A DNA stretch of 44,732 nt from positions 1 through 44,732 of the forward strand of contig JAAYVG010000037.1 of NCBI GenBank assembly GCA_012517285.1, read 5' to 3'. Shown piece by piece: positions 3,458-43,375 of this stretch. The first letter of the stretch is position 1; every line of letters starts with the position of its first letter. The translations under genes were made by a program, and so were the position numbers. The notes beneath the pieces are model-generated. The model saw only the letters and a program-made list of their open reading frames with translations. It did no database searches and had not been told where the DNA came from. This stretch comes from Elusimicrobiota bacterium (lineage in GTDB: Bacteria > Elusimicrobiota > Elusimicrobia > Elusimicrobiales > UBA9959).

Positions 3458-3547
3458 CAGAAGTCAGAAGACAGATGACAGAAAACAGAAGTCAGATGTC
3501 AGAAATCAGAAAGAACAAGTCAGAAAAGCAACTCACTCTTCTGACTT
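3458..3547. repeat. Degenerate heptamer tract between purB and purA
   Basis: Ten consecutive 7-bp units run from 3458 to about 3528, all variants of CAGAAGT, CAGATGA or CAGAAAA, with one decayed unit at 3514-3520. An inverted piece at 3537-3547 is the perfect 11-base reverse complement of 3461-3471, so the transcript could fold back. The tract ends one base before the purB stop codon at 3548-3550. Confidence 0.9.
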
Positions 3548-10819: not shown

Positions 10820-11032
10820 GGTTGTTTAGTTGTCTGGTTATTTAATCATCAGGATGGAAACAGATGTCAGAAGTCAGATCCTGCCTGCCGAAGCCGCTTC
10901 GGCGCAGGCAGGGACAGAAAACAGAAGACAGAAAAGCAAATTGGTTATTTAGTTATCTGGTTATTTAGTTGTTTAGGAAGAAAGGAAGAAGTTGGTTATA
11001 TAGTTGTTTAGTTATCTGGTTGTTTAGGAAAG
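10820..11032. repeat. Composite repeat: octamers, heptamers with nested palindrome, octamers
   Basis: This gap of about 309 bp between ribBA and rlmB is almost filled with repeats. Octamers GGTTGTTT, AGTTGTCT, GGTTATTT lie at 10820-10843. Heptamers (CAGATGT, CAGAAGT) lie at 10861-10879. A GC-rich dyad at 10880-10913 has 9-bp outer arms CCTGCCTGC/GCAGGCAGG and an inner 17-base palindrome. Heptamers ACAGAAA and ACAGAAG resume at 10914-10934. Four octamers follow at 10943-10974, then a GGAAGAAAGGAAGAA spacer, four more octamers at 10994-11025 and an AGGAAAG end. The periods 7 and 8 are not multiples of 3, so it is not coding. Confidence 0.9.
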
Positions 11033-18260: not shown

Positions 18261-18353
18261 CTGTCACTGTTTTTGCTGTCCTCTGCTTTCTGACATCTGT
18301 CTTCTGTCCTCTGTCTTCTCTTTACTGATCACTGTCCACTGTTCACTGTTTCA
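18261..18353. repeat. Heptamer tract at the 3' end of bmpA
   Basis: About a dozen 7-bp units run from 18276 to 18345: CTGTCCT, CTGCTTT, CTGACAT and CTGTCTT types, then CTGATCA, CTGTCCA and CTGTTCA. Looser units lie at 18261-18275 and 18346-18353. The last unit contains the bmpA stop codon (18351-18353), so the repeat reaches into the gene end. The unit order closely follows the tract at 43120-43189. Confidence 0.92.
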
Positions 18354-33791: not shown

Positions 33792-33829
33792 CAAAAAATA
33801 TTAATTAAAAAATTTTAGAAATGATTTAA

Positions 33830-34029
33830 GGACACTGAAAAAGTGGTCTGGTTGTTTGGTTATTTAGGAAGAGTAGAAGTAACCGCGTAGGTCGATTTTG
33901 GAAAAAAACTTAATGGAATTTGCTAACAATACTTTAAAAAAACTTGCAGTTTTGTTTGATATAAATTCTTAAACTTCTTATATAATTTTTTATTTATAAG
34001 ATTTTCCGCCGTTAGGCTTTTTCACTGCC
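33830..34029. mobile_element. Possible 200-bp miniature inverted-repeat remnant with octamers inside
   Basis: The 295-bp gap between the acyl-CoA dehydrogenase and nuoA contains GGACACTGAAAAAG at 33830-33843 and, inverted at the other end, CTTTTTCACTGCC at 34017-34029, which reads GGCAGTGAAAAAG on the other strand. These look like imperfect terminal inverted repeats. No target duplication or coding capacity is visible. Two octamers GGTTGTTT and GGTTATTT (33850-33865) with the AGGAAGAG end motif lie near the left end. The rest is AT-rich with nothing recognised. Confidence 0.35.
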
Positions 34030-34089
34030 ACCCGAGAATGGTAATTTTCTGATTTAGCAAACTTTTCAATCATCTATTCTTCTTTTCTA

Positions 34090-42862: not shown

Positions 42863-42915
42863 ACAATTTAATGAAATGGATTTTTGGGTTATTCGTAAAC
42901 AGGGTTCACTAAAAA

Positions 42916-42990
42916 GGTTATTTAGTTATCTGGGAAGAAAGGGGAAATTAGTTATTTGGTTATTTAGTTATCTGGTTGTTTGGGAAGAAC
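42916..42990. repeat. Octamer tract with GGAAGAAAGG spacer
   Basis: Octamers GGTTATTT and AGTTATCT (42916-42931) are followed by a GGGAAGAAAGGGG spacer (42932-42949), four more octamers (42950-42981: AGTTATTT, GGTTATTT, AGTTATCT, GGTTGTTT) and a GGGAAGAAC end. The arrangement of octamers, purine spacer, four octamers and GGAAG end repeats that at 10943-11032. Confidence 0.9.
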
Positions 42991-43020
42991 AAATTAGTTG
43001 TAAAGAAATCACTCTTTATC

Positions 43021-43189
43021 TGCCTTCTGTCCCTGCCTGCCTAGAGAAACTATGGCAGATTATATGTGTTAAATTAATGCTGACTACAAGTCCTTAACAC
43101 ATTGCAGTGGTCGCAGTCTCTGCTTTCTGACATCTGTCCTCTGTTTTGTCTTTTCTGATCACTGTCCACTGACCACTGATCACTATTTT
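43021..43189. repeat. Decayed palindrome, 9-bp dyad and heptamer tract
   Basis: A CTGCCTT heptamer and CTGTCCCTGCCTGCC lead into a short hairpin (CTGCCTAG...CTATGGCAG, about 43034-43058), matching the flank of the palindrome at 10880-10913 but without its inner core. Next, ATGTGTTAA (43064-43072) and TTAACACAT (43094-43102) form a perfect 9-bp dyad. Ten consecutive heptamers then fill 43120-43189, beginning CTGCTTT, CTGACAT, CTGTCCT and ending CTGATCA, CTATTTT. Confidence 0.88.
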
Positions 43190-43212
43190 GATGGAGATTT
43201 GTCGTTTTCTTC

Positions 43213-43236
43213 TTAACCTTAATCTCAATCTTAACC
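43213..43236. repeat. Hexamer tract TTAACC/TTAATC
   Basis: Four successive 6-bp units, TTAACC, TTAATC, TCAATC and TTAACC. It is the third short period (after 8 and 7) in the same gap. The rest of the 517-bp gap 42859-43375 holds only AT-rich sequence and the palindrome at 43305-43334. Confidence 0.7.
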
Positions 43237-43304
43237 TGTAGTTACATTATCCTAAACCTCCACCGTTATACTTCTTCAGTGCCTCATAAATATATCACTT
43301 TTAT

Positions 43305-43334
43305 TATTCTCTAATTCTGCAGAATTAGAGAATA
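43305..43334. repeat. Perfect 30-bp palindrome centred on CTGCAG
   Basis: TATTCTCTAATTCTG is followed at once by its exact reverse complement, so each strand can form a 15-bp hairpin with no fixed loop. It lies about 40 bp past the DUF2335 stop and may act as a terminator, a protein-binding dyad or a repeat. The flanking AT-rich sequence gives no clear T-run. Confidence 0.8.
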
Positions 43335-43375
43335 TAAATAGTCATTATGTATTTTTAATTTTTAAGATGGGATAT

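Follow-up and report, generated by a model that had tools for sequence, protein, structure and literature searches.

The STRR sequences of cyanobacteria are tandem arrays of heptamers with a single period. Interspersed arrays of 7- or 8-bp units, in Geobacter, Beggiatoaceae and cyanobacteria, and MITEs with internal tandem repeats, exemplified by BrickBuilt, are both known already. BrickBuilt of Porphyromonas gingivalis is a MITE with 19 copies, one 23-nt repeat period and an IS5-type terminal inverted repeat (TIR), GAGACCTTTGCA (PMC4596501). In Geobacter metallireducens, the "global regulator binding sites" of classes 1-4 are arrays of an octamer (GTTGCTYN) or a heptamer (MTYCTGA), and they were suggested to be sites for IHF/HU (PMC2700814). 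Heptamers of the sequence TAACTGA occur in Beggiatoaceae, cyanobacteria and Bacteroidetes, and to the author of that study no mechanism of transfer was evident (PMC4679880). Finally, REP/BIME are high-copy intergenic palindromes that form mosaics (PMC2817692).

Here we report on a stack of short repeats within 44,732 nucleotides of contig JAAYVG010000037.1 from an Elusimicrobiota bacterium, the whole of which is referred to as the window. The stack spans about 42902-43285, and the start of the next gene follows 44 bp downstream. The initial annotation took it for a free-standing intergenic composite made up of octamers, a GC-rich half-palindrome, a dyad, heptamers, hexamers and a perfect 30-bp palindrome, and all of these pieces are indeed present (Table 1). 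Their density is above chance: two-unit octamers are found 12 times in the window versus 0.00 in shuffles, and four-unit CTGNNNN arrays 11 times versus 0.01, which rules out chance periodicity as the source of the arrays. The stack is not free-standing, however, being enclosed by a pair of TIRs that had been missed and that delimit a 383-bp element (42903-43285). No protein-coding gene was recognised between the TIRs, and an Rfam scan of the whole window at the gathering cut-off gave no match. The ten heptamers described as CTGnnnn hold as ten in-register units, but CTG is the start of only eight, the other two beginning with GTC and CTA.

Table 1. Positions of the element, its parts and related repeats in the window
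Feature	Position	Strand	Remark
Heptamer array without recognisable TIR	3458-3536	-	
Related composite without recognisable TIR	10821-11028	+	octamer, 20-mer, heptamer, GC palindrome, heptamer, octamers
Heptamer array without recognisable TIR	18276-18350	+	
Second TIR-bounded member, chimera	33829-34031	+	left end of octamer type, right end of compact-MITE type
Probable decayed left target-site duplication, TAAACA	42896-42901	none	5/6 positions as in TAAATA at 43287-43292
Left TIR, GGTTCACTAAAAAGG	42903-42917	+	2 mismatches to the genome-wide family consensus GGKKCACTGAAAAAG
Octamer tracts, RGTTRTYT units	42917-42982	+	exact at 42917-42932 (pair GTTATTTA-GTTATCTG) and 42951-42982 (four units)
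Conserved 39-bp module (AAAGAAATCACTCTTTATCTGCC...)	43002-43040	+	L068 100%, L045 95% identity
GC-rich palindrome, surviving half CCTGCCTGCC	43032-43041	+	intact copies elsewhere read CCTGCCTGCGCCGAAGCGGCTTCGGCAGGCAGG
Dyad module inserted in GC palindrome	43045-43113	+	9-bp arms ATGTGTTAA (43064-43072) and TTAACACAT (43094-43102)
Heptamer array, ten in-register CTGnnnn-type units	43120-43189	+	eight start with CTG, one with GTC, one with CTA
Conserved non-repeat motif GATGGAGATTTGTCGTTTTCTTCTTAACC	43190-43218	+	23 copies in fetched loci
Hexamer array, CTTAAY/CTCAAT	43212-43235	+	CTTAAC-CTTAAT-CTCAAT-CTTAAC
TIR-proximal segment CTAAACCTCCACCGTTAT	43252-43269	-	common to compact MITEs
Right TIR, GAGGCACTGAAGAAG on minus strand	43271-43285	-	2 mismatches to the consensus
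Probable right target-site duplication, TAAATA	43287-43292	none	the family's commonest exact duplication
Perfect 30-bp palindrome, outside the element	43305-43334	none	separate 14-copy repeat

The 30-bp palindrome does not belong to the stack as had been supposed. It lies beyond the right TIR and recurs elsewhere in unrelated flanks, and a single continuous element that includes it was rejected on these grounds. One such palindrome is present in the window versus none in shuffles, and its sequence ATTCTCTAATTCTGCAGAATTAGAGAAT (28-30 bp) occurs at 14 sites (the window and L301-L314), 11 of which are identical over 28 bp and several of which have unrelated flanks. It had no match at up to three mismatches in 40 relatives; the same-genus species carries two copies of an asymmetric variant, ATTCTCTAATTCTGCAGAATATTGGAAT. 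ATTCTCTAATTCTGCAGAATTAGAGAAT is a candidate protein-binding or hairpin site under constraint.

As anticipated by the initial annotation, there are other copies in the genome, locus DNA giving 82 matches within its own 1.96-Mb draft. The TIRs were recognised from about 35 of these matches that were read with their flanks, many of which lie between inverted copies of GGKKCACTGAAAAAG. The 15-bp consensus GGKKCACTGAAAAAG occurs at about 195 genome sites at up to two mismatches versus 25 for the reversed control, often as head-to-head pairs 100-345 bp apart. Genome-wide counts of this kind come from pattern searches and targeted stretches of a draft genome in which several loci were picked for resemblance to the query, and the copies are related by descent, so that the numbers are not independent and are inflated. 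Contigs C11, C18, C25, C43 and C45 (G000) end about 120-145 bp inside compact MITEs, and copy numbers from the draft are therefore probably underestimates in that respect. Exact 6-7 bp target duplications adjoining the GGG were seen for 17 of 40 TIR pairs in fetched DNA, with TAAATA the most frequent, whereas permuted right flanks gave a mean of 2.7 and a maximum of 7 in 2000 runs. Among pairs with perfect TIRs the proportion is 12 of 17. Nearly all exact duplications belong to compact MITEs and none to composite copies whose flanks were compared, and the composites are therefore probably older. At the level of the family, the elements are non-coding, short (383 bp for the window copy, where MITEs measure 50-1000 bp), present in many copies and have both terminal inverted repeats and target-site duplication, the features by which a MITE is recognised; in the window copy itself the duplication agrees at only 5 of 6 positions (TAAACA/TAAATA). 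Within this MITE family, the copy in the window is both composite and degenerate, and given its mutated TIRs and the loss of its left hairpin arm it is probably an immobile relic.

From what is established for MITEs, TIRs combined with target duplication would be the marks of non-autonomous DDE transposition. No autonomous relative with matching TIRs was found among the PF13751 and PF01609 proteins or the fetched TIR loci of the draft genome. An IS1182-type (PF13751) transposase, considered as the mobiliser, is absent from the genome; the single DDE_Tnp_1 (PF01609) protein has no matching TIR nearby; and a 5.3-kb TIR pair on contig 25, considered as an autonomous element, contains ORFs that resemble ordinary cellular genes and no transposase. 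Further families of compact MITEs, whose ends (GGGGCACTGAAAAAG/GGTCTGCTGAAAAAG; GGTTCACTGAAAAAG/GGATTCCCTGAAAAAG) are related to these, are present in other genera of the family (G025, G013; L138, L144, L151, L154, L157).

Annotated loci show a recurrent order and polarity of parts: a TIR, octamers, 20-mers (TCATCRRGATGWARACRGAT), octamers, CAGAAG-type heptamers, the 39-bp module and the GC palindrome, followed by an optional dyad module, CTG-type heptamers, the conserved motif ending in TTAACC, hexamers, the TIR-proximal segment and an inverted TIR. A same-strand TIR lies no more than 60 bp from 12 of 60 octamer arrays, and at ten of these the junction is fixed and exact (0 for the control pattern); the remaining 48 have no TIR in the 60 bp upstream. 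An inverted TIR follows the conserved G motif in 13 of 22 cases, compared with 2 for the control. Incomplete and chimeric copies are common. Locus L044 has one composite-type and one compact-type end, and its chimeric ends, like those of the second TIR-bounded member in the window, reflect exchange between subtypes. Modules are also found outside intact elements, and many arrays lie away from TIRs: heptamers occur alone at L064, L291, L292 and L297, octamers with the 20-mer at L290 and L299, and the dyad module without other modules at L046. In many copies, inverted heptamers flank the core; none of the 57 octamer arrays of this genome has an inverted partner. At L282 (G000:C51), heptamer arrays at 40-115, 420-490 and 2110-2395 run in frame in a large polyketide/fatty-acid-synthase-like gene, one of them with a palindrome, and apparently form inter-domain linkers (KTEDRRQKSEVRGQKTED). 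Positions 1-620 of the window hold a CRISPR-like array with the repeat TTTCAGTTCCCTTCTTATCGGGATTGCCTTTCCTAC and a period of about 73.

Across 23 copies with differing numbers of units, successive CTG spacings equal 7 bp in 75 of about 97 instances, and 87 of 121 CTGs stay in phase with a fixed motif downstream. Exact spacing and kept phase indicate that change has been mostly by whole units, and the observation that the units keep an exact length is borne out. It had been read as an argument for selection on spacing or for templated addition. However, the stack is the interior of a TIR-bounded element, and as this was copied, much of the order and register that the copies share was handed down with it, so that there is no need to invoke direct selection on spacing at every locus. 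Identical neighbouring units are rare in this genome, both for octamers (1 of 82, versus 16.4 expected) and for heptamers (3 of 119, versus 12.5 expected); pooled over other octamer-bearing genomes, such neighbours exceed expectation. Their rarity here would most simply be read as slippage by which identical units are preferentially lost when adjacent, and templating is not demanded. Folded as DNA, eight of nine composites form better hairpins than shuffles (z -2.0 to -5.9), and a separate folding of two of these gave z -7.5 and -5.4. The exception is the window copy, which folds no better than shuffles (z -0.35 and -0.2). Compact MITEs fold strongly (z -6 to -8).

Three-unit octamer arrays number 95 in this genome, compared with none in 60 relatives, among them the same-genus species; heptamer arrays number 47 here and 0-11 elsewhere. 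Of 235 genomes of the class, only this one (45) and a member of genus g10 (11) have the exact TIR together with TCTATTTG (up to one mismatch). At up to three mismatches, 24 sites in g10 were read and divided by eye into 12 compact MITEs, 11 composites and one unrelated site. Arrays of the g10 composites begin directly after the TIR-proximal TCTATTTG, and their units are octamers (CACARGAR), heptamers (GTCGGAA/GTCAGGA), 9-mers such as CAATGAACG and GC palindromes (CCCCGCGGAAGCGGGG), with pyrimidine-rich heptamers also in some. Their autocorrelation peaks at lags 7 (z 16), 14 (z 15) and 8 (z 7.7), a set that the compact copies lack. The two lineages thus have the same ends and stacks of the same kind, built from different units. 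The origin of the arrays can thus be put to the test by setting compact against composite copies of one element family.

The neighbouring gene had been annotated as TPR/SpoIID. Pfam supports TPR repeats alone, below cut-off, and detected no SpoIID domain. The gene is conserved in the same-genus species at 55% identity and its upstream neighbourhood differs; because of this upstream rearrangement in the sister species, no empty orthologous site could be aligned. A search of GTDB contigs with the neighbouring protein for relatives returned nothing.

In a GTDB-wide scan for four-unit octamers, the matches listed include Prevotella, Flavobacteriales, Acidobacteria and others. Among the matches listed, 53 of 130 arrays in other phyla are accompanied by an inverted partner no more than 150 bp away, and the arrangement is the same each time. 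Interspersed hairpins whose arms are degenerate GTTRTYTR octamers, 2-15 units long, were observed at L165-L238 (Prevotella CALZJQ and JALFOF; Acidobacteria nzgw76); those of one Prevotella genome share a conserved loop of about 27 bp (e.g. TATTCGCAAATGAGAAAAGCTATCAAC) and differ in the length of their arms. The Flavobacteriales genome JALWFE (L192, L227) has a GTTATTTG/GTTATCTG octamer tract followed directly by GTCGGAT/GTCCGGT heptamers, so that the 8-then-7 stacking recurs in a different phylum. Small intergenic hairpins were also seen with hexamer arms (GATTAAGATTGAG...CTTAATCTTAATC) in genus g5 (L009, L027), where they stand alone, and with heptamer arms (CAGTGGT...ACCACTG) in g9 (L011) and g11 (L013).

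Taken together, we consider it probable, at roughly 70%, that the stack goes back to an old copy of a composite MITE that has since decayed, and represents the interior of a non-coding mobile element spread many times through the genome. Such an element, roughly 200-400 bp long and with GGKKCACTGAAAAAG as its TIRs, would be cut at its ends by a DDE-type transposase acting in trans and would insert at T/A-rich sites with a 6-7 bp target duplication. Its interior would consist of short-period tracts chained in fixed order around a palindromic core, with two inverted heptamer tracts flanking the core of intact copies and predicted to form a long hairpin. Whole units may be gained or lost between copies by slippage or unequal recombination, the register being kept, and identical neighbours would be rare because they are preferentially lost. 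One may instead regard each tract as an independent interspersed repeat or hairpin element that settled in tolerant intergenic gaps, much like REP/BIME, with the TIRs as one more insertion. Modules found on their own agree with this, as do the g5 hexamers, which form a small stand-alone hairpin, and the GTTRTYTR octamers of other phyla, which form stand-alone hairpins with loops of their own. Nevertheless, independent insertion predicts variable order, whereas TIR-bounded copies keep a constant order and orientation and an exact TIR-octamer junction, and we regard this explanation as unlikely.

The arrays could also be kept as regulatory or nucleoid sites, at which a DNA-bending protein of the IHF/HU type would putatively bind at fixed spacing, by analogy with the proposal for G. 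metallireducens. Exact unit length, intergenic positions and the near-identical heptamer consensus MTYCTGA in that species (PMC2700814) fit the idea, which is nonetheless very unlikely, given that octamers are missing from the 60 relatives, the sister species among them, that positions track mobile elements, that unit sequence differs between genera and that heptamer arrays also serve as linkers inside the polyketide-type synthase gene. Hardly any more weight can be given to a dedicated mechanism that would use a template to write units of 7 or 8 bp, some of their positions being two-state, beside a MITE end; indeed we rate it as slightly the more improbable. The two-state positions (GTTRTYTR), the avoidance of identical neighbours and the octamer-then-heptamer stacks with other units in g10 and in one Flavobacteriales genome would suit it, but no candidate enzyme or template was found, the same statistics can be obtained from slippage, mutation and copying, and other genomes show no neighbour avoidance. 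A broader and still doubtful suggestion, somewhat less plausible than independent insertion, is that the element ends serve as a scaffold for stacks that run from 8-mers through 7-mers and a GC palindrome to further arrays, and that such stacks arise time and again, independently and with different units in each lineage, by an undescribed process that fixes unit length and leaves certain positions two-state. If that were true, carriers of this kind could account for the puzzling occurrence of heptamer and octamer arrays across phyla, and repeated origin on the same scaffold would point to an unrecognised bacterial way of building degenerate micro-repeats.

Returning to the composite MITE, we found no description in the open-access literature of TIR-bounded stacks of several short periods recurring with different units, in keeping with the initial view that the composite is unusual, and nothing on the unit sequences themselves. 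The likeness to STRR, heptamer tandem arrays too but of a single period, is loose. BrickBuilt MITEs stand closer, as do the arrays of octamers and heptamers that are paired in G. metallireducens. Like BrickBuilt (PMC4596501), the present family has TIRs, no transposase, degenerate tandem repeats in variable number and predicted long stem-loops, and intact TIRs or target duplications are often missing. Unlike BrickBuilt, with its 23-nt internal repeat and GAGACCTTTGCA ends, it has periods of 6, 7, 8 and 20 bp together with palindromes in a fixed order; its TIR is unrelated, and its duplication measures 6-7 bp. The Geobacter sites (PMC2700814) are likewise interspersed short tandem arrays, there in inverted pairs at variable distance, and their heptamer MTYCTGA is close to the CTGAMTY units of this genome, but they are single-period and not described as TIR-bounded composites. 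With REP/BIME (PMC2817692) the family has in common its high-copy intergenic palindromes that form mosaics, and it differs from them in its transposon-like TIR ends with target duplication. The TAACTGA repeats (PMC4679880) are also intergenic heptamer arrays with a patchy distribution across phyla, but consist of one exact heptamer without TIRs, whereas here a mobile carrier is visible. Reports of interspersed 7-8 bp arrays are scattered over several phyla, and horizontal spread has been suspected without a known vehicle; in this genome a vehicle can be seen, a MITE with clear ends and target duplications.
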